Shown piece after piece: positions 30,101-64,000 of a stretch of DNA of 64,000 nucleotides. This stretch comes from Gordius sp. MW1 (lineage: Eukaryota > Nematomorpha > Gordioida > Gordea > Gordiidae), in NCBI GenBank assembly GCA_964036665.1, contig OZ038531.1:9486168-9550167 (forward strand), given 5' to 3'. A model generated the notes under the pieces. It was not told the DNA's origin, searched no databases, and was given only the letters and a program-made list of their open reading frames with translations. The position numbers and the translations under genes are program-made. Numbering within the stretch: position 1 is the stretch's first letter; each line of letters begins with the position of its first letter.

Positions 30101-33100
30101 ACCGCTGGCCGGGAAATGTACGATATTTTTAAAACGAAAAGGTATTTTAGGAATCTGAAAAAGCTATTTTCCCCCGGCCGCCCTGGGCATCTACGGCTAA
30201 ATCGCGCGAATCGGGCCGGTAGTTTCAGAATTTAGCCCTTTTTTAAAACTAAAAGGAATTTTAGGATTCTGCAAAAGCTATTTTACCCCTGGCCGTCCTG
30301 GGAACTACGGGTAAAGTTTCGCGCGAATCGGGCCGGTAGTTTCAGAATTTAGCCCTTACATACATACACTTTACTTTATAAAATAAAGGTGTGCCGACAC
30401 GGGAGCAGGCTACATATAGTTGGCCATGCGAAAAGCATGGATTTTCTAGATTTAAGCCAACAACGGTTAATGATTGTCCCTGAGCTTTATTGATTGTCAT
30501 TGCGAATGCTAGGCGTACAGGAAACTGAACGCGCTTGAATTCAAAGGGCACATCGGTGGGGATCATGGGGATGCGTGGGATCATCACGTCCTCGCCTATA
30601 TACGTTCCGCAGATTATAGTAGCCGCAATGACGTTTGGACGCAGTTGTTTTACGGCAAGTCTGGTGCCATTACACAACCTCGGGGGATGTAAGTTACGCA
30701 GGAGTATAGGGCACCCAAAATTTAAAAACTCAACTAATAAAACTGGCAACAAAATTAATGAGCTGCCATTATTATCACCTGGCCATAGAAGCATGTTATT
30801 TATTTGGGGACACGACCTTGCATAAGTTATGTAATAACAATGCACATTATAAGAACGTATTATATAAAAAGATACAAATGTCACACGTATGGGGGCGATG
30901 TGGATGCATGCCACACCGTTGATCAGTTTCAGCCAAAAATTAATTTAAGGGTAATGGGCAAGGTAGTCTGAAAAATTGTATCAAAATTGACTGAACATGT
31001 ATAAAAAACAGAGTAAGTTATTACTAAGCTAAAAATATAAATAAATAAAATTTAAAAAAGGTGTGGGCGGGAAATGCCCATATTTTGGCAACTAAAAGAC
31101 CTTTTTGGATGCGGCAAACGCTATTTTACCCCTGGCCGCCCTGGGAGCCTACGAGTAAAATTTGGATGCTTACTTAAGTAACAACACAACATAATTTCTT
31201 TAATTCTTGCCCTTTAAATTATCACATAAAATTTCACAATATAAATAAGAAATAAATAAGTATAAACATCAATCTTACCATAATTTGAAGCTGGCAACTA
31301 ATTCTTTGATGCTGACAAATTATCATAAGTAAATATATAGGCAATGATATAAGAGATATGCAAAATAGGCAATTTGTATACATTATTCTAAAATTATATA
31401 AGGTTTTATAAACAGAAAATTAAAAAAAGAACATCAGTTTAATTTGAATTTGTCAATTATGTATGACATCATTATTGTATATGATGCTATAAATGAAGCT
31501 GGCCGGAAAATTTCCAAAATTTTTAAAACGAAAAGGTATTTTAAGAATCTGAAAAAGCTATTTTACCCCTGGTCGCCCTGGGAACCTACGGGTAAAGTTT
31601 CGCGCGAATCGGGCCGGTAGTTTCAGAATTTAGCCCTTACATACACACACTTTACATTATATACATATAGATAATATATGTCCTACCCACTCAGCAAGCC
31701 AAGCTGCAAGTTTATTATTATTTTGGATCAAAACTAAGATGCCATGTAAGAAAAAATGTTTAAAGTATAAACCAAATGAATGTTGATTTGGTATGCATTT
31801 AACTTTTAATTTTGGTTAAATTAAAAAAATTATTAGCCAAATTCTATTTATCCGTTCTTAATATTTAAGAATATTTATAGTTCATCTAATCAGGTAAAGT
31901 ATGTTTCGTTAAACCTTGGTGCTTACACAAATTTATATATATTCTTACAAGCCTCTATCAATAATAATAACAAAAAATAAGTTTGAATTTATTTGATTTT
32001 AACTGATGTGGCACTTGAGTAATGAGGCTGGTTGACGTAAATAGAAAAATCCCTTTTCATTTGTTTCAAAATATAATTGTTTAAAATCAAATGTTATGTA
32101 TGATGTGTGTTAATGATTTTAGATGAAAAAGCATGTCTTTAAAATGGTATATTTGTCAACCTAAAGGCAACAAGGATTCAGGCAAATTTGGATTATATAC
32201 TTATTACTTTTGTTTACTGGAGGGAATGGATGTATAAAGATTTTTAACACTTCCCTTATTTTTCTATAATAGTAATTTTTTATATTTAGTAGCTCACAAA
32301 ATATTTTTAATAAAAATTAAAATTGTTTCTGCAAATTTTTTAACAAAATATCTTACATATGCACTTTTAAATCATTAATTATCTCAATATTAAAAGTATA
32401 GCCTATAATATATGCATTTAAAATGATAACAACCCTTATTTATAATTATGATAATGACTTAAAATAAAATAACTGTTCAAAGTATTGAATATGCATTAGA
32501 AACTATTTGTTTAACTAACAAAATTCGAAAATGCAATTAGCATAAAATTTATACTACCTCATGTCAAATATTGTAGAGTTTTGAGTATGTCTTGCCATAC
32601 CATAGGACATAATTCTTAAATATATTTTTTGCATGTTTGCAAATCTTTTCATTAACAAAATCTATTGAACATTCTTTAAAAACTCATATATATAAACTCT
32701 TTTAGGGAGATCATGTTGCTGTAACCAATGATTTTTGTGATTAGCATTTAGATTACGATTAATATCTTCAAGAAAATTGTAATCTGGCAAAATAATTAAA
32801 CAAAAAATTATTCATACCTGATAGAATAACATTATCATCAAATTTATCAATAGGAACATATTTGCTTTTATAATTATTCCCATGACAATCATATTTCTTT
32901 TTATGTCTTAATACACAAGGTAAGGAACATGTTATACAATTACATTCAGGACATTTATACTTTGCATCCTGATGGCAAAATTCACACCTGTATTTGTCAA
33001 AAATGTAAGTTATATAAATCTTTGCTAAAAAATCATAGTTAGCAATAGTAATTTGTAATCAAATAACCAAATTCCCCAAAAGGTTAGTTTTAAAAAAAAT

Positions 33101-34625: not shown

Positions 34626-35092
34626 TGCTATTTTACTTTAGTTTTTACACAAAATAAAAATTCAACTAATTTATATACTGAGAGGTTATGGACTTAACCA
34701 GATGAATAAAAATGGGGGGGGGGGGATATGGATTCATTTAGGGAGGGGCAAAATAATTATATATACTAAAGTGTTTATCATAATATTGTTGAATCTAACT
34801 TCTTTAACTAAGGATTTAGCTGGTCCTTCCTACCACCAACAAATATTAGAATTAAAATTAATAAATTGTAACGATTGTCAAAAGGCTTTATATTATGATA
34901 TTTATATATGAAACAAAGAAGGATATGTTTTGTTCCAATGGTTCGATGCGCAAAGATATAAAATTGTTTGTTTAGACGCGCAGATAAAAGGGGGAATATC
35001 TGGGAGATGTTTTATTTTTTATAGGGACAATAATCTAATTGAGTTTGTGAACGCCGTCTCCCCTTTTTATATTAAAAGTAGAAGAAGGGGTG
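34626..35092. other. AT-rich DNA between elements
   Basis: Contains a poly(G) run near 34714-34724 and no recognisable gene. The last eight bases (aaggggtg) form the left target-site copy of the following hAT element. Confidence 0.5.
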
Positions 35093-35778
35093 CAGGGTTT
35101 CTTTCAGGGGGGAGCCCGGGGGGTATAACCCCCCGGGCAATTTCAAATACCCCCCCCGGAGAGTTTTGATTGAAGGAAGCATGAACTCAAGTTCCATCAT
35201 GAAGTCATAAATTATATTAATAAGCTAAAATTGAAATTCAATAAATTATTGTAATTTGTCAATAAAAAAAATATAAAATTGGCGAAATTAAATTTTTTTT
35301 ACAAATCAGGTGGAAATCATTCATAGACATTTTTTAACATCTGTGAACCTTAATTTACAATTTTGAAAGTTACAAATTATCCTTAATTAAAAAATATCAA
35401 TAGGTAAATAAACATAAATAAATGCTTTTAGAATTATTAAATCACTATCTTACTTATAAACTTAAAAATAATTATTATTAATAATAGACTCTATTGTTTG
35501 TTTTTTATTGATATAATATGCTTATTTTGAATTGCAGATGTCTGGTAAATATAAAAGTCTTTTACGCTACTTTAGTAAAAAGGAAAATCCTAATAAAAAA
35601 GATGGTAAAATGTTCAATTTGGAATAATTTTAATTATGTATGGGTATTTGTGTTTATATAAAACTAGGTGAACCCGGCAAACGTTGTTTTGCCATTTACC
35701 CGGGTGTATTAGCAGAATATATATCATCTTATAAAAAATTTCAATAGATTAAGAATATATCAAATATAATTGGTAAGT

Positions 35779-36049
35779 TTTTAATGGATAAATTTTCGGG
35801 AATTGTCGAGGGTGTTAAAAAGAAAACCTGTATCCTTTCTTACATTATAATATTAACCTCCCTTTAGAACGTTCGATTTAATTGTATTATTTTATTTTAT
35901 TTTGTAATTCTATTTTATTTTAATCCGAAGATGTCCTTAAATAGGACGAAATATTATTATAATAATTATAATTTCTTTTTAACACCCTCAACAATTCCCG
36001 AAAATTTATCCATTAAAAACATCGAATATGAGGGTAAAAATCTTCTAAA
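35779..36049. mobile_element. MITE copy 2 with inverted ends
   Basis: Inverted arms (aatggataaattttcggga, gagggtgttaaaaag) and an internal gtccttaaataggacg palindrome match the MITE at 27800-28247, here in the opposite orientation. A 13-bp direct repeat ataattggtaagt flanks it (35766-35778 and 36050-36062). The end with the extra stretch aaaaatcttctaaa is on the right, consistent with inversion. It lies within the 3' part of the 10-kb Helitron. Confidence 0.7.
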
Positions 36050-36429
36050 ATAATTGGTAAGTGTTTAGTATGCAAAAATTTTTAAACAGATAGTTAAAGA
36101 GGGTCCAAGGCCCAGGCCCACTTTAATTTATTTAGCCACGCAGGAGGGATTTCTTTCTTTCATCTTCATAAAATATGTATTTTTATCATCACGCAGGAGG
36201 GGACACGACCGTCCTATAATAATAATAATTGACGTGAAAAATAAGCAAAAAAATGACTTTAATTTAACATGGGCGTACTCAGGTTTTGAAATAGGGTGAG
36301 GCAGAATTAAAAAAAAAATTTACTGACACCAAAAATAATAATTTAAAAATTTTTTAGCGAGCAAAAAAAAGGTCCCGACATCCAAAAATTGTCCTTACCA
36401 AAAAGAGTATGGGGAATAAACTGTGAAAT

Positions 36430-37455
36430 TTTGAGCCAAATCGGTCTGGTCACCCCACCGTCCTTTGATTGGAAGATCTGGATAAAAATAATTTAGATGA
36501 TTTGTTGATTTTATACATTTTTAGACACTTACATAAACGATGAAAATAAATCCGTAATGCGCTCGCCTTCTCTCCTTTCCACCCCACCGTCCTTCGATTG
36601 GAAGATCTGGAAAAACATAATTTAGAGGATTTATTTTATCATAGTCTATAAACAGGAGAAATATTGTCTATTTTTACATTTTTAGACACTTACATAAACG
36701 ATGAAAATAAATCCGTAATACGCCCGCCATCCCTCCTCTCCACCCCACCGTCTTTCGATTGGAAGATCTGGAAAAACATAATTTTGACAACTCCTCTCCA
36801 CCCCACGGTCCTTCGATTGGAAGATCTAGAAAAACATAAACATAAACGATGAAAATAAATCCGTAATGCGCCCGCCATCCCTCCTCTCCACCCCACCGTC
36901 CTTCGATTGGAAGATCTGGAAAAACATAATTTTGACAATTTAGATTATCATAGGCTATAAACAGGAGAAATTTTGTCTATTTTTACATTTTTTGAAACTT
37001 ACATAAACGATGAAAATAAATCCGTAATGCGACCGCCATCCCTCCTCTCCACCCCACAGTCCTTTGATTGGAAGATCTGGAAAAACATAATTTTGACAAC
37101 TCCTCTCCACCCCACCGTCCTTCGATTGGAAGATCTGGAAAAACATAATTTTGACAATTTAGATTATCATCCAACAGGAGAAATACTATCTATTTTATAC
37201 ATTTTTAAACACTTAAATAAACGATGAAAATAAATCCGTAATGCGCCCGCCATCCCTCCTCTCCACCCCACCGTCCTTCGATTGGAAGATCTGGAAAAAC
37301 ATAATTTTGACAATTTAGATTATCATAGGCTATAAACAGGAGAAATTTTGTCTATTTTTACATTTTTTGAAACTTACATAAACGATGAAAATAAATCCGT
37401 AATGCGCCCGCCATCCTTCCTCTCCACCCCACAGTCCTTTGATTGGACGATCTAA
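36430..37455 (-). repeat. Minisatellite near the Helitron 3' end
   Basis: About seven units of roughly 160 bp and shorter internal duplications, each with ccaccccaccgtccttcgat and aaacgatgaaaataaatccg. The same unit occurs in the opposite orientation at 39405-40080 within the nested Helitron, so the array is a structural part of this Helitron family. Confidence 0.9.
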
Positions 37456-38639
37456 ATAAAAATTTAAATAAAGTAAACATTTAAAAGTGATACCACATAA
37501 CAGGCCGCAGTAATGATATATTGGCAGGACGGGTGATCATCGCAATGCAAGAGGATATACGACATTTTTGGTTTTTCCATCAGGTGCAAAAATGAACAGA
37601 TTCCTCGGTGTGCCAACTCTGGAGCAAGCAACATATAATTGACCATGTGAAAAACATGGTTTTTCCAAATTCAATCCAGCAACGCTCAGTGATTGTCCTT
37701 GAGCTTTATTGATTGTAATTACAAAAGCTAAGCGCACAGGGAACTGTAGGCGCTTGAATTCGAAGGGCAAATTGGTTGGAAGCATTGGCATGCGCGGAAT
37801 CAGTACATCTTCTCCTTTACTTTTGCCGCTGATGATCGTCGCTTCAATGACGTTTGGCAGTAGTTGTTTTACGGCAAGCCTGGTTCCGTTACACAGCTTA
37901 GGTGGATTTAAATTGCGAAGGACCATTATAGGTGAGCCAATTTTCAGAGTCAATTTGTAGGGTGGCCCCGATGGTTCCAAGGAATTTAGAAATTGAGTTG
38001 GATAATTTACCGCCTGATCTTCATCAATAACTGTGTCAACAGATATGTAAGTAAATGGTTCACTGGGAATGTTCAATAGGATGCGATCATTAATTTTGTG
38101 ACGTCGTCATTCTTCGGAGCCAAGATTGCCCGTTCACATAGCCAGTCGTGATTTGTAAAGTTAATAGCAATTTCAGGAAACACCATATTTTCGACATCTT
38201 CAATTGATGACTGTATGTTGCAAAAGTGCGATGGAAATGATATTTCGTGCGTTGTGGGTTCAATTGGAAATTTACCGTTTCCCAAGTCCAACAGTTGATT
38301 GGCAAATGGTTGAGCCAAATCATCTTGAAGTAAATGAACACGCATGTTGGTGGTTAGCGTGATTATCTTCACACTTCTCCAAAGATATGACGCTTACAGG
38401 CAAGCATTGAGCTCATCTGAGGGTGTTGACTTTGGGATGACTGGCAAGGTTTGACGGAAATCACCGGCTAGCAGCAAGAGAGCTCCTCCCATTGGACGTG
38501 CAATCTGTCTCAAATCTCGGAGTGTACGATCCAGCGCCTCGAGTGCTTTTTTATGTGCCATCTAGAGCTGTTAAAAGTTCCTTTTATATGTTTGTGTGTT
38601 TGTTTGATTGTGTTTGTTTGTATCTATGCCACCACCAAA

Positions 38640-39405
38640 TTTGGAAAACTAACAGACCGATTTGGCTCAAAATTTCACAGTTTATTCCCCATACTCTGGA
38701 GCATGTTTTAAGATTTGTTTGAGCCAAATCGGTCCAGTAGTTTTTGAGGGGTCACGTTCTTTTGTTTTATACATTTTGGCACTTAATAAAGACGTCCCTC
38801 AAAAACTACTAGACCGATTTGGCTCAAAATTTCACAGTTTATTCCTTATACTTCGGAGCATGTTTTAAGATTTGTTTGAGCCAAATCGGTCCAGTAGTTT
38901 TCGAGGGGTTACGTTTTTTTGTTTTATACGTTGGTTTATACGTTTTGACACTTAATAAAGACGGCCCTCAAAAACTACTCGACCGATTTGGCTCAAAATT
39001 TCATACTTTATTCCCCATACTTCGTAGCATGTTTTAAGATTTGTTTGAGCCAAATCGGTCCAGTAGTTTTTGAGGGGTTACGTTCTTTTGTTTTATACAT
39101 TTTGGCACTTAATAAAGACGTCCCTCAAAAACTACTAGACCGATTTGGCTCAAAATTTCACAGTTTATTCCCTATACTTCGGAGCATGTTTTAAGATTTG
39201 TTCGAGCCAAATCGGTCCAGTAGTTTTTGAGGGGTCACGATTTTTTGTTTTATACGTTGGTTTATACGTTTTGACACTTAATAAAGACGTCCCTCAAAAA
39301 CTACTGGTCCGATTTGGCTCAAAATTGCATACTTTATTCCCTATACTCCGGAGCATGTTTTAAAATTTGTTCAAGCCAAAAATTTGTTCAAGCCAAATCG
39401 GTTAT
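38640..39405 (+). repeat. Hairpin-unit minisatellite (~160 bp x 4-5)
   Basis: Each unit of about 157-169 bp is an imperfect palindrome: one arm contains ctagaccgatttggctcaaa and the other ttgagccaaatcggtccagt, joined by ttcgttttgttttatac-type spacers. The same palindrome occurs singly at 45465-45600 and 60380-60625 and twice at 63640-63960 in related Helitrons, so it is a normal Helitron part amplified here. Confidence 0.9.
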
Positions 39406-40080
39406 TTTCATCGTTTATGTAAGTTTTAAAAAATGTAAAAATAGACAAAATTTCTCCTGTTTATAAACTATGATAATTTAAATCCTCTAAATTATGTTTT
39501 TCCAGATCTTTCAATCGAAGGACGGTGGGGTGGAGAGGAGGGATGGCGGGCGCATAAAGGATTTATTTTCATCGTTTATGTAAGTTTTAAAAAATGTAAA
39601 AATAGACAAAATTTCTCCTGTTTATAAACTATGATAATCTAAATCCTCTAAATTATGTTTTTCCAGATCTTCCAATCGAAGGACGGTGGGGTGGAGAGGA
39701 GGGATGGCGGGCGCATAAAGGATTTATTTTCATCGTTTATGTAAGTTTTAAAAACTGTAAAAATAGACAAAATTTCTCCTGTTAATAAACTATGATAATT
39801 TAAAACCTCTAAATTATGTTTTTCCAGATCTTCCAATCGAAGGACGGTGGGGTGGAGAGGAGGGATGGCGGGCGCATAAAGGATTTATTTTCATCGTTTA
39901 TGTAAGTTTTAAAAAATGTAAAAATAGACAAAATTTCTCCTGTTTATAAACTATGATAATCTAAATCCTCTAAATTATGTTTTCTAGATCTTCTAATCGA
40001 AGGACGGTGGGGTGGAGAGGAGGGATGGCGGGCGCATAAAGGATTTATTTTCATCGTTTATGTAAGTTTTGAAAAAGTAG
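39405..40080 (+). repeat. Minisatellite (~161 bp x 4) in nested Helitron
   Basis: Four units with a period of about 161 bp, each with tttccagatcttccaatcga and cggtggggtggagaggaggg; inverse orientation of the array at 36430-37455. Confidence 0.9.
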
Positions 40081-40244
40081 AACATATAGATATTAATTGG
40101 TAGTTTTTTTCTTATATAAATTTTTTATTTTTTTAATATTTTTAATAGGGCAAAACAACGTTTGCCGGGTCAGCTAGTATATTATATATTACAATTTATA
40201 AAAATCATCAGGTTATAAATGTTTATCTGATTTTAACAAAATAT

Positions 40245-40480
40245 GATTTTCAAAGTTGTCATCTAAAAGACATGTTCGCTTGTCTCCAAATAAAATTTTG
40301 CCCAAGCTAAATAATCTTTCCACAGGGGCACTTGATGGTAATGGCGTATTATATTTAATAAATAGTTTTTTTAATGGGGAAAACTGTCTAAAAGACTTAA
40401 ATTCTTGGAGAGCATAAAGAGTTATTGATTTTGCATCCTTTTGAATAAGCGTAAAAATATTCTCAAATAAAGGTCAGGGT
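40245..40480 (-). pseudogene. hAT transposase C-terminal dimerisation remnant
   Basis: The minus-strand frame reads KKLFIKYNTPLPSSAPVERL followed by FSLGKILFGDKRTCL, the hATC dimerisation signature (S/A-x-V-E-R-x-F-S, then K-R at the expected distance). The catalytic DDE part and zinc finger are missing. It belongs to hAT A. Confidence 0.85.
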
Positions 40481-43400
40481 ATATTTTTCTAGGCTATATT
40501 ATGGTTAATATGTCATGCAACTCGTAATCTTTATTTCCAGCCAATCAATAAGTACAACAAGTGTAATAACGACAAATCACGATCAATCGATTGAATAATG
40601 TTTTTCCAGTCAATCAATAAATATAAGTGAATATGTAAGTGTTAGGATGATGGCCTTGAGAGATCGTCGTGGAATCGGTCCGGTAGGATGAGTGTCAACT
40701 AAGTGTAATCGGAGGTATTTAATTGCGGGATGTTAAGCTTGTGGTTGATAATCGTAGTAAGGGAGAAGGGCAGGTATCTGGTCTGGCTCTTGATGGATTA
40801 TTGCCGCTGGAACCACGTGTCTACAATGAGAAATAAACATCCCCCCACCCGCAGGACTAAACGTGTCCTGATTAAAAAACTAACAACCTCCTCCTGCAGG
40901 ACTAAAAAATAACTAAACAAAATAACTAAATAAAATAACTGATCTTTCGTGGTCAACATCTCGCTATTTAAAACCCTGTCGAAGTGCCTCTCATTTGAAT
41001 GGAGAATGCTTCCAGACAATTGGATATATTGCACGTCTCCACTAACTTGAGACTGCCATTAGCATATTCGTTTACTTCTAATTTTAGTTAGCACGCTATC
41101 TCATTTGCGTAAGCGCCTTCATTAGTTTGTAAACATTAACTAAATCATACCTACAACAGAACCATTGGTATATCTTTTATGCAAATAATTTCACACCTAC
41201 AACAATGGTAATGTCACTCTCACTCATATCTAAACTCAGAAAATTATATACTTAATATTTATAAACTTACTATTACTAGGAATATGATAAAAATTAAAAA
41301 CCATTTAAAGGAAATGAACTTTATATAAATTACCATAAGTCGAAAAATTTATTTAACAAACACTACCGTGAATAAAATACTAAATAATATTAGCAAAAGA
41401 AACTTAAAAGGAACTTGTAAATAGTTCCTTTTGCGATAAATTGAGAAAAAAAGGAACTAGTTCTAGTTCCAGTTCCGCATTTTAAAAAGGAACTTATTAG
41501 TTCCTTTTTTTTTAAAAAGGAACTAGTTCCTTGGAACTAGTTCCTTTAACAGCTCTAGTGCCATCGTACATTCATCCCAAATGATGATTGTGCATGTCTT
41601 TAGTACCGTGGCAATACCCGAATTCCTACTGATGTTGCAAGTAGGAGTTTCATTTATATTTAGATTTAATGGGAGTTTGAAAGTTGAATGTGCTGTGCGG
41701 CCTCCATCGAGTAGCGTGGCTGCTATGCCCGATGACGCGACAGCGAGAGCTATCTTATTATTTCTCCGAATTTCAGCCAATATCAGATTAAGAAGAAATG
41801 TTTTTCCTGTTCCTCCTGGCGCATCTAGGAAAAGTAGGCCTCCGTTACCGTTTGTGACGTATTTCATGACGGTGGTATAGGCATGTTTTTTGTCAGCGAC
41901 TAAGAGCATTTCCTGAGCGTTGACAAACAATTGTAGCTGAGCCATGTCTTATTGTTTTTCACGCCATAAGTCACTGTCGTGAGCGTTGCTTCTATTACGT
42001 TTAGGTGCAGGCAATCCGATATGACATAACATTTTATTGTTTATGGATAGACAGATGTCCTCAAGTAATATAAGAGCTCGATTGAAGATGTCTTCGGAAA
42101 ATGGTATCTCCATATCCGGATGCATTCTACGTACTTGTAAAAGGATATCTTCACTGAGGCTTTCTTTGTGTGTATCCCAAAGATCTTTTGGATTAGATGG
42201 TGCGCAAGTTGTCAAAATGATCGCAAATAAAGTGCGTATTTGGTGAGGGAGACATGTGAGCGATGCTTCCTCTAATGTCGTATTCCAATGTCGGTCATTT
42301 TCGAGGAAGCGAAGTTTGAGACATGCTTGTCTATATGTGTCACACACTTCACCATAGATGGTTCTAATGGATTGAAATGATGTTGGTCCTTTGACATTGT
42401 GGAGCAACATTCTTAAAAAATTGCATTCGGCGTTATTGGGATGAACAGTATACATTCGACCCAAAGCATCAGACATACGTACGCTTGAATTTCCAGGAAC
42501 TATTGTACCTTGTTTTCTTCTTTGAAACACTTTTTTTGATGAGTTCCAAGTGTAATATTTTGGGATTTCGTGGTAGAGCAAAGTTTTTGCGAAAACATCC
42601 GTTTGGCACAACAGGAAAAAAGCTGTCAGTGTTGTATTAGGTGGTTGCGGCGCTCTTTGCATAGCGTTCTCTTCCGTGAAGTAGACACGTTGGCCATTAT
42701 CCAGGTGAACGGCGAGATGTACAACACTTGGATAGCGTTCGTGAATAGGGAACCCGAGAATGCGCCAGACAACTTCATTACTGCTGATGTAACGTCCCAT
42801 TTGAAATTGTGTGATTTCATCGGATTGCGTATTAATAAGTTTAAAAACTGCCATATCACTGCCTTTGGTGACGTATTTGCAGATGTATTTTATAGATTTC
42901 ACTGAATTGCAATACTCCACGTTTATGTGGGCCTTGAACATTTTTGAAAGCAACGAAGTGTAAGGGACGATCCATCTATTGTCGATTTCTACGGGAACAG
43001 TTTTCACTTTGACGGTGAATCAATGACCTCCATCGTTTACATTACGGCGTCTATACAGCGGATAGATGCCGCCACCAGTTTTAGTTTCTCGGCTCATTTC
43101 TCTTGGATATTTTTTGGTGCATTTTCCCTCTTTCATACATAGTGAATCTCTATTTATTGCTCCGCAGGGTCTATGAATCATATGACGAATGACGACTAAT
43201 GATTTCAAATAGTAGCGGATTTTCTTGCGGATCGGGCAGTTCAGCCGATATAATATTATCAATATGAGTAGGAAAAATTGTGTCCTTCAGCCAAATTAGG
43301 ATGTGAGCGTGTAATAAGCCTCTTTTTTGCCATTCTATGGAATAGAGCCAGCAGGTAGTTTCTCCGTAAATGTGATCTTTGGTGATGACATCGATGAGGC

Positions 43401-46400
43401 GCATAAGTTTTTGCCTGAAAACTCTGGCGGTGAGATCATGTCGATGAGATGAGGCTGGCCTGCCAAAAGCAACTGAGTGATCTCAGTCCAAGCCGGATTG
43501 CAGGTGAAGGTAATAAAAAGATGTGGACTTCCGTATTTGCGCACATATGTCATCGCATCTTGTGTATATTCATGCATGTGTCTAGGACTGCCGGTATACG
43601 TAGCTGGAAGTATGACCATTTGTCCAACATTGCTTGCGTGACCATCATGTTCGATTGCATCTCGCAAGTGAATTTCGGCACGGAGTAACCTCTGATTAAG
43701 ACGGATGAAAAGAAGTCGTTCGCTCTCGATTTTTGCATACATATCGACAATGTATTGGTGGAATAGGTGCCGGCACTTCAAGATGTGGTTGTATTGCTCT
43801 CTAATCATTATGCGATATGCATAAAAATCCATAGAAGACACCTGTAAGAGAAAGAAATCAGTAGATTAAGATCACATATTATCATTTTCGCTAGAACATT
43901 GAAATAACAAAGAGTATAACATTCACCTTTTTTGTTGCCGCGGCCCCTGAACCAGGATTAATTTGCATCACATTAAAGTGGTATCCGTCTTCTCCTTGCC
44001 AAAATAGTATGGGATATTGAAGGGCATCATATGATCTGTGTGTTGCATCAATACTTTGCAGAGTTTCATCCCTTCTGGAGATAATGATATCTCGACGATC
44101 AAATTCTATTCCGACCATTACGATTGCCACTTCATCGATTGTTGGTGCATTAAAGCATCTCTCATGTGCGCCTGATGGTGTTCTATCTGCTTTTATTACT
44201 ATTTTGTAATCATCCGTTGGCATTCGCTCTAATGCGATTTTGAATAATTTAATTAAATGATTTTTGTTGTGGAATAAATGTTGCAAGTCTATGATGATAT
44301 CACGTTTGACTCCTGCATGAATCCCACAACGTCAATCAGCCTCCGTATCGCCCATGAAATAAATTTGCAGAAACCTTTGCTCGACATCTGATAATGGTAG
44401 AAGGGAACCGATTTGATGGTAAATTTGTCCTTGTACTTTTAATGTGGGCATGTAACATCCATCATTCAAAATTTTCGTTGCTCCGAACGATGTCATTTGG
44501 AAGCATGCGTTGTACTTGCGAATGTGTTGGAGGAAGTGTTTGGACAATGTATTAGTTTCAGATACATAAGATAAGAGCGGTTCAGGTGGATCAACCAGAG
44601 GTGGCAAATTGACTTTGCCACTCGAACAACACATTCCAGGATTTTCTTTAGGGAACCGCAAAGCACGACAATGCAAACACATCGTATCCATTTGGCCAAT
44701 CATGACATTGGGGTGCATGCTGTAATCAAATACTACATCATAATGAAACGCTGCTAATTTCAAACTGGCTCGCGAACTATATATTGAGCGTCTGTATCGT
44801 GAGCGCATATTGTTTAGTCTTTCGATTCGCTCTTCAGCTGATTCGGTAGCTCGTGAAGTTGTGGTTCGTGAGCGTTTAGTGGCTAGTCTTTCGATTCGCT
44901 CTTCAGCTGATTTGGTAGCTCGTGAAGTTGTCCCTGAATGCATCTATAAGTCAATAAAAATACCTTTGATAAAGCTTCCAACGCTGGAATGTTAGCATTA
45001 AGTTGATTTGTATTACTTTTACCTCTGCTACGAAGATTGCTAAATAGAAATATTGGTTTAAATATAAATATTGGTTTAAATTATGATAATTGGGTATTGT
45101 GAGAATATATTTGTTCTAGAAACTTTTTAAGTGTTTCTAATGGCTGAAGACTTACACTTTATGAATTGACTAAAAACATAAAATATTCATAACGCAGTAT
45201 AGATATAACCCAAATAAGTTTATCCAATAATATAATTTACACGGAAAAGCTTCTTTTATCATATGGAATAAAAAGCATATATGTAATTAATTGGGGAAGA
45301 GCATATTAATACTTATTGTAGAATCTAATGTTTATATTCCTCTGGTTCATTCATATGGTAATGGGTCTGACCTAATTTAATATGAAAGAAAATTTTTATG
45401 CAGCAATAAAACATTTAAGCTTCATATACTATACGTCATATGACGTCATTATTAAGTGCTAAAACGTATAAAACAAAAAAACGTGACCCCTCAAAAACTA
45501 CTGGACCGATTTGGCTCGAACAAATCTTAAAACATGCTCCGGAGTATGGGGAATAAACTGTGAAATTTTGAGCCAAATCGGTGTGGTAGTTTTCTAAATT
45601 TGGTGGTGGCATACACACAAACATACAAACAAACACACAAACACACATAGTTTCATTTTTATATATAAGATAAGACATGAATATGTTTGTTTGTAATAGG
45701 TAAAGATAGGACTGAATTAAAAAAAACTCTTGTTTTATCTCTTACTATGGGAAATTATGGTAATTATTTTTAAGCATTAGATATTATAAATATATATAGG
45801 TTAAAGGCAGATATTATTCTGCTTCCAGCAGTGAAATTCACTTGAACTCTGAAAGAGGCAAGAAAGATTTTGGTTTTAATATAGAAGTATTATATATATT
45901 TTCATGTTTTAGGTCAAGATGAAAATTGTAATTCTGTTGGAGTGGGGAAAACTGTCTCTTCTATTTCTTATGATAAAAATGCTGGTAATTAAAATTATGC
46001 AAGTTGTTTTTATTTTATCAATATACATTGATAAAGATGAGTGTATTGGCAGCTCTACTAATTGGTCAGTCTCTGAAAGTGAAAAACATGGGCAAAATTT
46101 AAAACTTAAACCATCATATAAATTTATGATTTCATGGACATCTAAATACAAATGGCTAATTTTTTATGAAGCCTTAGGTGGGGCTTTATGCTCTGTCTGT
46201 TCTCTTTACAATATACTTTCTTAAAAGAACACTTGCCCGTGAAAATATTACATTAATGATTATGCGTGTATGTATCTATTTATATATCACTTATATCACC
46301 AATAAAAATCAGTAAATATAGTACAAAATGGTTTAGCAATTAAAAAAAAATTTTACCCCCCCCCCCGGAAGTTGAAAATACCCCCCCGAGCATTTTTTCT

Positions 46401-46654
46401 GAAAGAAACCCTGAAGGGATGCGTGAGGTCAAAGTCATAATAATTTTGAAATTATATCATTGCATCATTTAATTCGGAGCAGCTCTATGATTATTGACCG
46501 CTTGTCTTATTAGATTGAATATAAAATCATATGCTTTTGTATGTGAGGAGGGCAAAAGATTGATTAATCGTATATTTCGGTTGAGGGTTGAAAGATCGTG
46601 ATTACGTTTGTGTAATATGTCGATAAATGTATTATTTACATAGGGTTATTCCTA

Positions 46655-47860
46655 GTGTGACGATATGAGTTATGAAGTTCGATTGTTCTATTATTACCAT
46701 TAACGGTTGTCCAAATTATGTGTCGCGGTTTTTCTATACTGGTAATAAAGTGTGTTAGTGTGGTGATGTTATTCCTTTGTTCGTTAATATATTCCTTCTT
46801 CTCCTTCCTTTTAACATTTTGGCGTCGTTGGACAACGATTTGAACCTACATGGAATCCTATAAATTGGGAGATTCGATTGATATTTTTCTTCTGCAATTT
46901 GAAGTGCACGTCATAAGCCAAGTAATTCCACCGACTGTAGCCCAAAAAACGTGCAAACTGCTTAGTTGTCTATCAACGGAAGCCTTTCGGGTAGTGGCAA
47001 AGGATGCCATTCCGGATAATACTATAGAATGGGCATTCAAGGAATTAGCAGACAGGTTAAAGACATCATTCAAAAGTAGAAATTCCCCCCCCCCTGGCTC
47101 AATGATTTCGACTGGGAAACGTCAGACAGAAGGAAGGGGAGCCAATAACGTAATTTTTACGTAGACTGAAACCCGCGTCAAGGGATTGCAATTTCGCAAG
47201 CGGAGAGTTACCCAACAGGCTGTTGGATCAGTTCATTATGGGATTGCAGAATCCGACGGTTCAAGCCAGATTGATGGCTGAGAATGAACTAAAATGGGGC
47301 AGGGCCATTGAGTTAGCCATGAGGATAGAGGCGATCGAAGAAGGGATATTAACGGTGCACGTGCCAGTAGAAGAAGCATTCGCGGTGGATATGTTAAGGG
47401 CGGGCCATAACTTGACCAGGTTCACTTATGCTTTAGATATTTTAACTATCGATTTATATGTTAATAATAATTTGGTGCAATTTTTATTGGACACCGGGTC
47501 TTCGGTTACGATCGTGCCGGACAAGCTTTGGAGGAAGCCCCTACCAACCGTAGCAGAACCCACGCCCACCGTCTACGGATATGGAAAAAAAGAGATAAGG
47601 ATAATCGCCGACCTAAAGGTCGAGGCCCGACTAGGTCAGACACGGAAAATGCTGCCACTGTTATGTGTTTTGTAGTTCGATTGTTCTATTATTACCATTA
47701 ACGGTTGTCGAATTGTGTGTCGCGGTTTTTCTTTCCTGGTAATAAAGTGTATTAGTGTTGTTGGTAATGTTATTCCTTTGTTCGTGAATATATTCTTCCT
47801 TCTTCTTGGGGATGTTATTCCTTTGCTCGTAAAGATATCCCATCTTTTCCTATTCCCTAA
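46655..47860 (+). mobile_element. Gypsy-type LTR retrotransposon, internally reduced
   Basis: Two copies of an LTR-like sequence (46655-46816, and 47672 to about 47860, sharing gttcgattgttctattatta) surround about 855 bp. A primer-binding-like tggcgtcgttggacaacg follows the left LTR. Inside are a gag-like region (from 46850) and an aspartic protease-like stretch with LLDTGSSVTIVP near 47488. Reverse transcriptase, RNase H and integrase are gone. It is broken, with at least one major loss and a few smaller disruptions, and is a fossil of moderate age judging by LTR divergence. Confidence 0.75.
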
Positions 47861-50116: not shown

Positions 50117-52267
50117 CTAACGTGTTGTCATAAAATTTTGAGAATCGCCTCCAAGTACTAAATAATGAATGTCTTCGGTCGAAAACATATGGTTTTTTTG
50201 CATGATTTCGTCCGCAGGGGTGGATCGAGGGAGCACCGGTAAAGTTTGCCTGAAATCTCCTGCAAGCAATAATATTGTGTTACCAAAAGGTTTGCAGTTT
50301 CCTCGCAAATCTTGCAACCGCTTGAGAGCTTCGAGTAGTGCTGTAAACATTTTTAAAAAAATCGAACGCGTTCAGCGTTCATTGACAAAAATCGAATGCG
50401 TTCACGTTCACGTTCGTTTTCAAAAAAAAGGAACGCGTTCACGTTCGTTCAATATTTTATGATAATTTTTTTTAATTTAATATAAATAAATGTTTTATAT
50501 TTTTTAACACAATATATTAGCAATGATAAAAAATAATAGGTTTATTTCGATAATATAATTATAATATAATAGAGCGAATATAAAGATTTTTTATTTATAA
50601 AAATTTTTTCTTATCAATATATTAATTGTTTTTCAATATTTTCGTCGGATAAGCAGGAACGCTTGGCAGTCAATACATTAGCTATACTAAAAACCCGCTC
50701 CACAGGGGCAGATGAGGGGATTTGAGTATTATACTTAATGAACAAATCTTTTAAAGCAGGAAATTTATTAAAAACATTATTGTTTTGTCCTTCGCTTCAA
50801 AAAATTGCGATAAGATATCATCCTCCAATCCGCCCGCTACTTCCTTGTCAAAAAATGATATTTCGGAATCGACAGTTCTTTCATTATCAATTTTAGGGGT
50901 TTCAAACCCTTTTTTATAAAACTAAAAGTTTATTTTTTTGTACATTTAGTAATTATTGAATTCAGTCCTTTATATAAAATGAAATGAGTGATTATCATAT
51001 TTTTATTGTGGCAATGTCAATTCATCTGATGATTTTGAATATTCAGAATCTGAAGATGTCGACGATATAATAATATGGTTGTCCATATTAACCTATAAAT
51101 TAAAATATAATTAATAATATTAAATTAATGAACTTTTATCTTATCTTTTGCACGTCATGGTAAGTTAAAAGTATTTCAGAATAGGTTGGAAAAAGGAAAA
51201 ACAGTTAATTAAAAACTATAAGACTTTTTTGTTACAAAATTCGGATTAACATTATTTTTCAAATAAATAAAAATAAAAAAGGGTTTTTAAAATTTAACGA
51301 ACGTTAAATTCGAACGCGTTTATCAAAAAAAAGGAACGCGTTCACGTTCAAAGTTCACCAAAAAAGGAACGCGTTCATCAATTTTTATAAAATATTTGAA
51401 CGCGTTCGTGAACGCGTTCAAATTGAACGCGTTTATTTACAACACTAGCTTCGAGCGATTTTTTATGAGCCATTGTGCATTCATCCACACGATAATTTTG
51501 CACTTCTGTAATACTTTACCCATTCCAGATGTTCTGAAAATGTTGCAGAATGGGGTTTCACTATAGTGAACGTTTAAAAGCAATTTTAATGCGGAATGAG
51601 CAGTTTTTCCACCGGGAAAAAATTTAGCAGCTATTCCGGAAGACGCTAGAGCCACGGCTACATCATTCTGAGAACGAATAGTTGCCAGGAGCAATGTCAG
51701 TAGGAAAGTTTTTAGTACCTCCAGGAGCATCTAAGAAGAAGACTTCTCCATAGCAAGCAAAATCTTATCGTAAACGGCTTTTTGTTGCGTCGTTAGCTTT
51801 GGAACATTAAATCGCATATAAGATCGCTTTGATTGTAATTTTGTTCCCGATGTAGGTCAGGTTGGCATGAATTGAGTTGTAATAATATCTGCGCCAAAGG
51901 AAGCAGCAGTTGTATTTCCTAATGTTAGATATGTTACCAGTAAGCAGAGATATGGCTCTGGGGGTTCTCCAAGTTTGGGTAATTTAACTTTCCCAGACGC
52001 GCAACACATGCCGTTCGTTTCTCCAGAAAATTTTAGAGCATTGCAGTAAGGACATACAATGTTTATAGCGCCAATTCGAACATGGCGACGCAAACTTTCA
52101 ATATGAGAAGAGTTGCATAAAAATGCAACGCGGCTGAATAAGCGTAATTGTTGATAAGGTGTAGGTGGCTCAAGCAAACTCGATGAATTTTGTAGATTGG
52201 CTTGTTCAGTTGGTTGAGAAGCTCTATTATCGAAGCAGAAGAATGCGAGTGCGAAAGCAGTGGGCAC
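50117..52267 (-). pseudogene. Second Helitron fragment: zinc-finger start fused to helicase
   Basis: On the minus strand, 52267-51860 encodes the Helitron N-terminal Cys-rich part (CPYCNALKFSGETNGMCCAS, KLPKLGEPPEP). The sequence then jumps directly to helicase (from about 51820: VALASSGIAAKFFPGGKTAH, a Walker B relic near 51480) and, after a hAT insertion, FGNTILLLAGDFRQTLPVLP near 50270. The whole HUH Rep region is missing, with frame breaks near the Walker A site, so it is a deleted remnant. Element ends could not be defined. The sequence is diverged from the Rep/helicase at 37537-44943. Confidence 0.85.
50336..51447 (-). mobile_element. hAT element B inside the second Helitron helicase
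   Basis: Inverted ends TAGTGCTGTAAA and TTTACAACACTA with a perfect 8-bp target duplication GCTTCGAG (50328-50335 and 51448-51455). Both subterminal regions carry several gaacgcgttc palindromes (50367-50450 and 51300-51432). A minus-strand remnant encodes SAPVERVFSIANVLTAKRSC (about 50650-50715), the hATC dimerisation signature. The rest of the transposase is missing. Confidence 0.9.
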
Positions 52268-53090
52268 TAATCAAGTCTCAGAGTACGTACTTGATGCTAT
52301 CTATTTGCAGTTCGTGTACGACACCCTATCGTTGATCTCTTGCGACGCATGTAGGTCTAAAAGTAGATATACCATGTTTATAGTAAAAGAAATAATTTAA
52401 TTCACTATATATCAGCTTTACATGTTATGGAGATATCATGTAATAATAATAACCGGACTGCTCAAAAAGACAAATCATATAAACATGTATTTAAACATTT
52501 GACCAAATTTTATACTGATTTAAATTTTTATACTTAGAATATTAATAACTGATCTTACTAAAAAGACAAATTATAAAGATATCTAAAAATTTAAGCTTGA
52601 TCATTATTGCCCCTCTCTAATTCCAACCCACGAAGACATAGGGTAAGGGGCTGAGTACCCCAAGCCATTTATAAAGGGATTATGCAAATATTACTTTTGT
52701 AGTGAAATTATGGTTACCTTGGAACACCCTTCTTACTCGATATGAATACACACTATTCATACTCTGCCGTATTCTATTCACAATCATTACAATTTGAATA
52801 ATCCCCAACTAACGTACGAGTTATGCATATTAACCTCGATAGTATGATATATAAACTAATGCGTGTCATCGAATATGATTATATTTTATCTTTTGATATA
52901 AATAAAGTTCCTTTAGTCAGAATAAAGTAGGCTTAAATGCCTACACTTTCCTCCAACGAATAGCAGAAATATGTGAATGTTTTGGTAGGGACCGGGTCAA
53001 AACCGCAGAAAAAAAACAGCAGAATTGGTCAGAACTGATCAAGACTGGTCAGAACTGGTCAAGATTGAACATCTGTTTTTTGATATGGTG
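52268..53090. other. Intergenic DNA
   Basis: No gene seen. Near 53018-53055 there are short tandem repeats of ctggtcagaa. Confidence 0.5.
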
Positions 53091-60212: not shown

Positions 60213-60676
60213 CTAGATGAACCCGGCAAACGTTGTTTTGCCATTTACCCGGGTGTATTAAATTATGTTGGAATTTTAGGGCATATATGATGATAAAGCG
60301 GTTATTGAAGTAAAAATAAAGTTTGATGTCTATATGTTCTACTTCTATTGTTCTATTTCCGTATACAGTGCAAGGCGTACGAATACTCGAAAACTACTGG
60401 ACCGATTTGCATTTGGCTCGAACAATCTTAAAACCTCCGGAGTGTCAGGAATAAACTGTGAAATTTTGAGCCAAATCGGATTGGTAGTTTTCCAAAAAAG
60501 TTGAGAATCAGGCGCTAAACTGTTCTCGAAAACTACTGGACCGATTTGGCTCAAACAAATCTTAAAACATGCTCCGGAGTGTCAGGAATAAACTATGAAA
60601 TTTTGAGCCAAATTGGTCTGGTATTTTTCAAAATTGGTGGCGGCATACACACATAGTTTCATTTTTATATATAAGA
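60213..60676 (-). mobile_element. Non-autonomous Helitron (464 bp)
   Basis: On the minus strand it starts TCTTATATATAAAAATGAAA at 60676 and ends with the GGCAAA/TTTGCC hairpin and CTAG at 60213, followed by T. It keeps the palindromic gaccgatttggctc block. Ends match the 10-kb Helitron at 35664-45670. Confidence 0.9.
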
Positions 60677-63600
60677 CTAGATGAACCCGGCAAACGTTGT
60701 TTTGCCATTTATTTTTGCATTTTGCAGTATCACTTTTAAGTGTTTCTAATGGCTGTAGACTTACACTTTATGATAATTGACTAAAAACATAAAATATTCA
60801 TAACGCAGTACAGATATAACCCAAATAATTTATAGTAAAGTTTAGCATAAGCCTTAAAGAAATGTCACTTAGTTTTAAATGTAATTTAAGTATCTTCTAC
60901 AAAATAAACGCATAACCATGACATAAAATACATTGTAGAATCTAATGTTTATATTGGTTCCTAGGCTAAATCCCGAAAGCGCACAATCCCGAATTTTAAT
61001 GCTACACTTTTACGGCAATTAACATATGGTAAAAAATATGCAATCATATAATCAAGCTTTTAATGAATATTTGGTTGAGAGAACAAATCAAGATAATACA
61101 GAAAGTATAAGTAAGCTTAATATCTAAATATTTATAAATTATCTTTAGAATTTAAAAAGTCGAGTAGAAAAAATTTGATTCTGACCCATAAAGACTTGGA
61201 TTATACCAAAATTAAAGATGGAAAACTTTATCATTTGTTAATTGTTAAAGCTTAATTTCATCAAATAAAAGTCTATTCTAGATATAAATAGGTTATCATA
61301 ATTCCTTAAATTAATACTGAGATTCTTAAAAGTGCAGGAGATATTTAGATAACTCTTGACATCTCACATGAAGGTAACTTATAATTCTTAGCACTTATAT
61401 ATTATATAGCTTATTCAAATTATTTGTAAGTTTATTTATAACATTCTATGATTTTTTAGGAGAGGGTGTATCAGTTCTTCCTACAAATCTTTAGATTATA
61501 CAACAGAGCTAGAGTATTATCATTTGTTAATTGTTAAAGCTTAATTACATCAAATAAAAGTCTATTCTAGATATAAATAGGTTAAATCAATGATTCCTTA
61601 AATTAATACTGAGATTCTTAAAAGTGCAGGAGATATTTAGATAACTCTTAGGTAAAGTTTCTTTGAATATGACTAATTTTGCTCATAACAAAAATAGCTT
61701 TTTTAATTTTATGATGAACATATTAAATAAGGTACAAACTATAAATTTAGAAAATTTGGCTAAAAAAAACTTAAAAACAAAAATTAATAGAATCGTCCAA
61801 ACTTAAGGAAGTGTTGACACTTTAAATAAAAATACATCATATAAGGTTATATTTAATAATATGAAAAAATCTAAATGTAATGTCTATAAACATATACAAC
61901 TATAAAAATGATAATTTTTGTGTAAAAATGAGTATCAAATTTAATTTATTGTAGATTAAAATGAAAATTATAATTAAGTAACTTAATAAACATAGTATAA
62001 TGAGTTCATTAATTTAGAATTTTTGTGTATTAAGTTGCTAAGCTTTAATAATATTTACTATAATGTATAAACTCTTAAAACTATAAAATTAGATTATAAA
62101 ACAAAGCTAAAATATTGTTATTTGTTGATTGTTAGAGCTTAATTTTATCAAATAAAAGCCTATGCTAGATATATATAGATTAAATGAATGAAAGTATAAC
62201 CAATCTTTTACTCATTGATAGATTACTCATTATTTACAATTTTATAACCATAAATTCAACAAATTCCATAAAATGGTATCAGAAATATACATGTAATATT
62301 TTCCAAAACAAAATTTTTATAATGTGGGTCTAACTTAAATTTCTATATGACAATAAGTATATTATTGATATTTCTTGAAATTAAGTTTGGTAAAATATAA
62401 AATTTTTCACATTCCTAAAAAAGTTATTGATAGGTACCAGATTTTCATAACCTGCTATAACATTTTCTAATTAGACTTTTTAAAACAAGAACAAGATTTT
62501 AAGGCATTTTTTTGCTAGGCTCTTTGGTAAGCATTAAATGTAAAAATTGGGGTAAGAGTTTCATCCATCAATCATCTTATATATCAATATAACAGCACAT
62601 CAATAAGTAAACATTAGTTGAGGTAGATAAAAATAAAATAGAAATAGTTAGTGATTTAGTTATAAATAAATTTGCCTTATAATAATAGCAAAAACTTAAT
62701 ACAAAAGCTTATCTAATCACATGCACATTGATACTAATCATATTTAACAATGATCCCTTTACAATCTTATAGGATCTAAATTAAGTTATATAGCATCATA
62801 AATTGTATGAATAATTTCTATTTAATCTAATGGCTAAAGAGATTGCCCTTTTAAAATTTAATATTTTTTCTATTAAAGTACAAAAAAACTTTAACAAATT
62901 TCTTATATGTTTACTTGCTGAGATTATACTCTGTAACTATATCACTTAACGTTCTAAATATTCCATTAATCAACTTTTATAAAAGAATCTAGAGGCATGG
63001 GATAGCACTGGGATGATATCCTTTATATAATACTTAAATTTATTATATATTGCTTATTTATACACCACCTTATACCAAACAAACGTATATCAGTTAATTA
63101 TATAATTAGTAAATTGTAAAGGTTCCACCCAAATATAGCTCTTGAGTACATAATACCCAAACATTATTGTATACCTAATAGGATTAATGATTCCCTGATT
63201 TTAAATACGTTAAAATTACCTTAGATATTGATTCCAAACGATTATTATTAATGGCATCCTTTAATTTATACCTTGTCACTAAATATTAATACTCATCAGT
63301 GATCTGTAAATAAAGCTATATTATGTTACTTGGTGCAGAGGTTAATTAAATGTGATTCTTACATAAGTAAATTGTAAAGGGGCACCCAAATCTTGCTCTT
63401 GATTATGGATAAAACTTTAAAATTAAAAAACATATGGAAATTTGAAAATCGTAGCAGTAGCATTATTGTAGCTTCGGGATTGTGCCTTTTCGGGATTTAG
63501 CCTATATCCCCTCTGGTTCATTCATATGGTAACGGGTCTGACCTGATTTAATATGCAAGAAAATTTTTATGCAGCCATAAAACATTTAAGCTTCATATAT

Positions 63601-64000
63601 TATACTGCATAGCATATGACGTCTTTATTAATTGCCAAAACTTATAAAACAAAAAAACGTGACCCTTCGAAAACTACTGGCCCGATTTGACTCAAACAAG
63701 TCTTAAAACATGCTCCGGAGTATGGGGAATAAACTCTGAAATTTTGAGCCAAATCGGTCTGGTAGTTATCCAAATTTGGTTTTATTAAGTGCCAAAACGT
63801 ATAAAACAACGTATAAAACAAAAAAACGTGACCCCTCGAAAACTACTGAATCGATTTGGCTCGAACAAATCTTAAAACATGCTCCGGAGTATGGGAAATA
63901 AACTGTAAAACTTTGAGCCAAATCGGTCTGGTAGTTTTCCAAATTTGGTTTTATTAAGTGCCAAAACGTATAAAACAAATTAATTTTTGGCCAAGGGGGG
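60677..64000 (-). mobile_element. Non-autonomous Helitron, end-to-end with the previous one
   Basis: Its CTAG terminus (60677-60680) abuts the TC start of the previous Helitron with no base between. It has the same 3' hairpin, then sequence matching 45130-45230, and at 63510-63640 sequence matching 45335-45480, followed by two palindromic units. It is interrupted by an inverted-repeat element (about 60962-63504), and its 5' end lies beyond the window. Rep/helicase sequence is absent. Confidence 0.8.
60962..63504. mobile_element. 2.5-kb inverted-repeat element of unknown family
   Basis: Ends are inverted copies of about 32 bp (taggctaaatcccgaaa, then gcacaatcccgaa). The matching Helitron region at 45320-45340 lacks it, which confirms an insertion; no clean target duplication could be fixed. 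The interior is very AT-rich with dispersed internal repeats (aataaaagtctattctagat near 61266 and 61554 and a diverged one near 62149). No transposase was recognised. Confidence 0.7.

Follow-up and report, generated by a model that had tools for sequence, protein, structure and literature searches.

Helitrons of the canonical kind start with TC, end in CTAG with a short 3′ palindrome, insert between A and T, and carry RepHel domains, as PMC4778049 and PMC6544945 describe; PMC5876387 reports Helitrons joined head to tail, and in tandem arrays, from plants and bats. Penelope-like elements with a GIY-YIG endonuclease show inverted repeats and short duplications, according to PMC3846280. The chronology of transposable elements has been derived from interruptions, using genome-wide interruption matrices in TRANScendence (PMC5657132), and REANNOTATE (PMC2672092) and TinT (PMC3014933) offer further methods for nested elements.

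The locus described here is ordered, as in those three methods, from which element interrupts which. It differs from their genome-wide interruption counts in being a single locus, from which whole families cannot be ordered. Its Helitrons have the canonical TC start, CTAG end, palindrome, A|T insertion and RepHel domains, but the outer copy has broken frames and tandem arrays, and the inner copy is non-autonomous and without its 5′ end. A longer copy of its Penelope-like insert has a GIY-YIG domain, and the family matches the published description in its constant 3′ and variable 5′ ends, inverted piece and short duplication; unlike elements with GIY-YIG, the copy at this locus is a 273-bp fragment with no coding sequence of its own.

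A stack of six insertions

We analysed a 64-kb stretch of DNA (the window, G000:C5:9486168-9550167), which is free of N, and searched the genome (211.8 Mb, 12 contigs), scoring the best 40 candidates of each search, so that all copy counts given below are lower bounds. The locus almost certainly arose by six separate transpositions, stacked four levels deep (Table 1). In the proposed history, a non-autonomous hAT of ∼1.3 kb would first have inserted into host DNA, duplicating 8 bp (step 1), and a RepHel Helitron would then have entered this outer hAT in minus-strand orientation, between A and T and with no duplication (step 2). The outer Helitron would in turn have received a fragment of a Penelope-like retroelement and a non-autonomous hAT of ∼0.9 kb from another family, the latter breaking the PIF1-type helicase region (step 3). 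Into this inner hAT would have gone an LTR element, of which one LTR remains, and a non-autonomous Helitron related to the outer one (step 4); a deletion of about 185–195 bp, later or simultaneous, would have taken the 5′ end of the inner Helitron together with the adjoining hAT end. Nesting leaves layers 3a and 3b unordered relative to each other, and likewise 4a and 4b.

Table 1. Features of the nest, in window coordinates
Feature	Position	Strand	Evidence or remark
Layer 1, outer non-autonomous hAT	35093..46413	.	TIRs, 8-bp flanks, copies across the Helitron site
Target-site duplication of outer hAT	left AAGGGGTG 35085..35092; right AAGGGATG 46414-46421		identical at 7 of 8 bases
Layer 2, outer Helitron, RepHel frames broken	35664..45670	-	A|TC...CTAG|T; Helitron_like_N, PIF1, Pif1_2B
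Layer 3a, Penelope-like fragment, inverted piece at 5′ side	35779..36051	+	high-copy relatives, 11-bp duplication, empty sites
Tandem array in outer Helitron, unit about 161 bp	36451..37463	-	also in inner Helitron, 39402-40076
Layer 3b, non-autonomous inner hAT with minus-strand coding remnant	38563..41557	-	target-site duplication, TIR relatives, continuous RepHel
Deletion junction	38586..38587	.	∼29 nt of Helitron and roughly 155–165 nt of hAT gone
Layer 4b, non-autonomous Helitron, 5′-truncated by ∼29 nt	38587..40177	+	3′ hairpin and CTAG, siblings L076–L081
Tandem array in inner Helitron, unit about 169 bp	38645..39380	+	related single stretch in outer Helitron, 45442-45647
Layer 4a, solo-LTR-like insert	40505..41204	.	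ATGG duplication, paired copies, empty sites

An earlier note on this DNA had read four levels, inserted in the order outer hAT, Helitron, inner hAT and inner Helitron, and both the depth and the order hold, with relatives of the layers running through without the inserts. The end signatures that it listed are likewise present: the 8-bp near-duplication of the outer hAT, the A/T flanks and TC...CTAG ends of the 10-kb Helitron, the perfect 8-bp duplication of the inner hAT, and the hairpin-CTAG end of the innermost Helitron. Its tally of four elements falls short, as the Penelope-like and solo-LTR-like inserts had been overlooked.

The layers from the inside outwards

The inner Helitron ends in a hairpin and CTAG at 40177, followed by T. 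This hairpin folds no better than many shuffles (z -1.74), nor does that of the outer Helitron (z -0.62), and the case for the Helitron ends therefore rests on copies. The two Helitrons have in common the 3′ hairpin and both tandem-array units, and their 5′ ends are near-identical, the inner one being judged via its siblings; related Helitrons thus landed both before and after the inner hAT, as the earlier note had held for this family. Further copies of the 169-bp unit lie elsewhere in the window, at 63618-63979 and 60386-60653.

All six siblings whose 5′ ends were read (L076–L081) have the complete end A|TCTTATATATAAAAATG, while the window copy has no TC after A, a loss that the earlier note overlooked. 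The accompanying loss of hAT sequence was judged against four relatives (L070, L071, L073 and L075), and no listed match to the joined inner-hAT query starts before base 20. The insertion point itself is continuous in L070, L071, L072, L073 and L075. We favour a single deletion, which would account for both losses and was probably later than the insertion or simultaneous with it. It is improbable that the inner Helitron arrived already 5′-truncated, making a later deletion unnecessary for the missing end: hAT base 24 is followed directly, and without clear overlap, by Helitron sequence that starts ∼29 nt in, which would suit such an arrival, but the absent hAT sequence beside the junction would then go unexplained, and the six complete sibling ends also argue against it. 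Three inner-Helitron matches reaching into the hAT flank were considered as extra copies of the nest and rejected, since their flanks are unrelated AT-rich DNA.

The solo-LTR-like insert lies between 4-bp ATGG duplications (40501-40504 and 41205-41208). It resembles solo LTRs of non-autonomous LTR elements in being a lone repeat of ∼700 bp, flanked by a 4-bp duplication, that occurs in pairs elsewhere; unlike solo LTRs generally, it ends TTAATA...CAACA and not TG...CA, and the single internal ORF tested for gag/pol (110 aa) gave no Pfam match. Near-full copies occupy 38 other places at 93–98% identity among the best 40 candidates, and 11 same-strand pairs 2.5–2.7 kb apart occur among the matches listed. 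This points to an LTR element that is short and non-autonomous, of which the insert was probably once a full copy. Target duplications were read by eye in two of the LTR pairs. The inner hAT is continuous over the empty LTR site at 19 places (best 40 candidates), and the hAT/LTR junction is ungapped in six of seven fetched copies, with 6–8 mismatches each (L075 being the one missed). At L057 and L058 (G000 C1:25864413-25867762) internal sequence precedes both LTRs of a pair, as in LTR-internal-LTR tandem arrays.

The inner hAT comprises 700 bp of its own sequence (38563-38586, 40178-40504 and 41209-41557), flanked by GTGCCATC at 38555-38562 and 41558-41565, and it interrupts the PIF1-type region of the outer Helitron immediately after residues DECTMA. 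The RepHel region is continuous over this site at 39 places with 91–98% identity (best 40 candidates). The single copy checked in detail, L083, is an uninterrupted outer-Helitron comparison covering the 5′ part as far as the array, with the 3′ end outside it; here one GTGCCATC stands at the site, the junction is exact, and identity is 97% on either side. The inner-hAT family measures ∼0.9 kb: both TIRs are present in four of seven fetched relatives (876–924 bp), three of them with a perfect 8-bp duplication and the fourth with one mismatch. The inner and outer hATs have different TIRs and belong to different families. Like non-autonomous hAT elements, both families have short TIRs and 8-bp duplications; unlike hAT elements at large, neither nest copy has a transposase domain above the Pfam cut-off, with the hAT dimerisation domain (PF05699) in the inner copy reaching 12.9 bits (E 0.097) where the cut-off is 21.4. 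Against some copies, the identity of the inner hAT is 97–98% in one part but only 75–85% in the other (40178-40402 versus 41209-41557), and the family looks as if it were mosaic.

The Penelope-like insert is bounded by an 11-bp duplication, AATTGGTAAGT, at 35768-35778 and 36052-36062. Dozens of genomic places match the stretch 35819-36053, most of them at 95–99% identity, and the outer Helitron aligns across the empty site at 39 places with 94–97% identity (best 40 candidates). Seven fetched copies have one common 3′ end point and differing starts, with the inverted piece in at least four. In the longer copy L003, a 315-aa ORF encodes a GIY-YIG domain, and among 29 homologues of this ORF several have RVT_1 and three have GIY-YIG; RVT_1 was seen on the homologues only, and the window fragment itself has neither GIY-YIG nor reverse transcriptase. 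Elsewhere, copies recur at an exact spacing of 3672 bp in several places within G000 C2:12291204-12308158, which suggests tandem duplication.

Spanning 10007 bp, the outer Helitron retains 6720 bp of its own once the inserts are subtracted. It has a CTRR end, a TC start and an A|T target, with A at 35663, T at 45671 and no duplication, and all three domains of its RepHel protein score above the Pfam cut-off, in broken frames. Named relatives of one RepHel frame are mostly from arthropods among the 120 matches listed of 1253. Two other stretches of the window resemble part of the RepHel protein: a fragment at 30342-30944, of which 30388-30703 is 78% identical to 37607-37922, and 51857-52270, where the resemblance is by eye alone and no Pfam match was found.

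The outer hAT, with 1314 bp of its own sequence (35093-35663 and 45671-46413), ends in the TIRs CAGGGTTTCTTTCAG and CTGAAAGAAACCCTG, which we take to fit the hAT type. It gave no Pfam match and hence no hAT transposase domain in the one frame tested (103 aa), as expected for a non-autonomous copy, and its hAT label therefore rests on the duplication and the TIRs. With the Helitron removed, the joined sequence aligned singly across the joint at 39 places with 89–94% identity (best 40 candidates). In 30 fetched copies both TIRs were present 26 times; 15 of these 26 have a perfect 8-bp duplication and five have one with a single mismatch. The Helitron site is ungapped in 27 of the 30, and mismatch-free in 17 of those 27 (L022, L026 and L029 were missed). 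The joined host flanks returned only the self-match at the joint and no place without the outer hAT among the best 40 candidates, and step 1 is presumably an insertion on the strength of the TIRs and 8-bp flanks. The other matches to these flanks fall in an old dispersed repeat of the right flank (46580-46880), which is 70–89% identical at other places; beyond it, 47154-47675 has a weak aspartyl-protease-like match under the cut-off.

Integrity and age of the nest

The search for uninterrupted copies and empty sites that the earlier note proposed found insert-free relatives for five of the six inserts (best 40 candidates for each search), and the inserts are therefore not chance arrangements. 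All pieces are high-copy repeats, of the sort that an assembly could misjoin, yet an artefact of this kind is very improbable: four inserts have duplications of the right length (8 bp with one mismatch in layer 1, 11 bp in 3a, 8 bp in 3b and 4 bp in 4a) and the two Helitrons are flanked as expected (A|T or CTAG|T), which misjoins would not create, and the window is without N. Also very improbable, and rejected, is a single composite element normally moving as a unit, for which the segments' contiguity here and the arrays and 3′ hairpin common to both Helitrons might speak, but relatives of the host layers run through without insert across the junctions (the opposite of the normally joined segments that the earlier note had named as evidence against a nest), and inner-Helitron siblings with fetched flanks sit in unrelated DNA.

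This is ordinary nested-transposon biology, clearly resolved, and nothing general is overturned. The open-access literature, in the portions accessible to us, yielded no published nest of such make-up. What the locus adds is a single ordered history in which related Helitrons occupy two levels, and it shows that whole-looking elements can conceal further layers. With its six insertions in order, and insert-free relatives behind five of these, it is also well suited to testing software for the dissection of nested repeats.

Substitutions private to the window copy mostly decrease inward, with small counts and one contrary result. They number 22/1307 in the outer hAT, 5/735 in RepHel, 3/699 in the LTR, 2/225 in an inner-hAT sub-region, 1/225 in the Penelope-like insert, and 0/108 (three siblings) or 1/106 (two siblings) in the inner Helitron; in the count behind the sub-region, Penelope-like and inner-Helitron figures, L077 and L079 were dropped as too short and L081 was absent, while no rows were dropped for the outer hAT, RepHel, LTR and full inner-hAT counts. 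The contrary result comes from the full inner-hAT alignment, which gives 13/635 private substitutions; the terminal branch of the inner hAT, at 0.037, is longer than the 0.0073 of the surrounding Helitron. As only seven relatives at 85–90% identity underlie it, we read this result as an upper bound and not a date; terminal branches gave no date for the inner hAT. Alternating periods of hAT and Helitron activity, which the earlier note had gone on to propose, are not supported: the inner and outer hATs come from separate families, and a single nest puts individual copies in order, not bursts.

Head-to-tail Helitrons

Outside the nest, at 60640-60710 of the window, two related Helitrons lie head to tail, the TC of the second coming immediately after the CTAG of the first. 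Genome-wide, the exact 26-bp 5′ end of the Helitron family occurs 879 times, 787 of them after A, 82 after CTAG and 10 after other sequence; some of the 82 may be duplicates, as four on C1 lie 29–35 kb apart. Tentatively, the CTAG|TC junctions may mean that resident Helitrons in this genome attract further Helitron insertions at one exact base. Insertion of a newcomer between a resident's TC start and the A that precedes it would fit such junctions, and if this is true, Helitrons pile up end to end besides nesting. Twelve CTAG junctions were read, and the family hairpin lies upstream in ten; L103 has a different hairpin, and the twelfth, L108, is too short for the hairpin test, with a visible end that fits the family.
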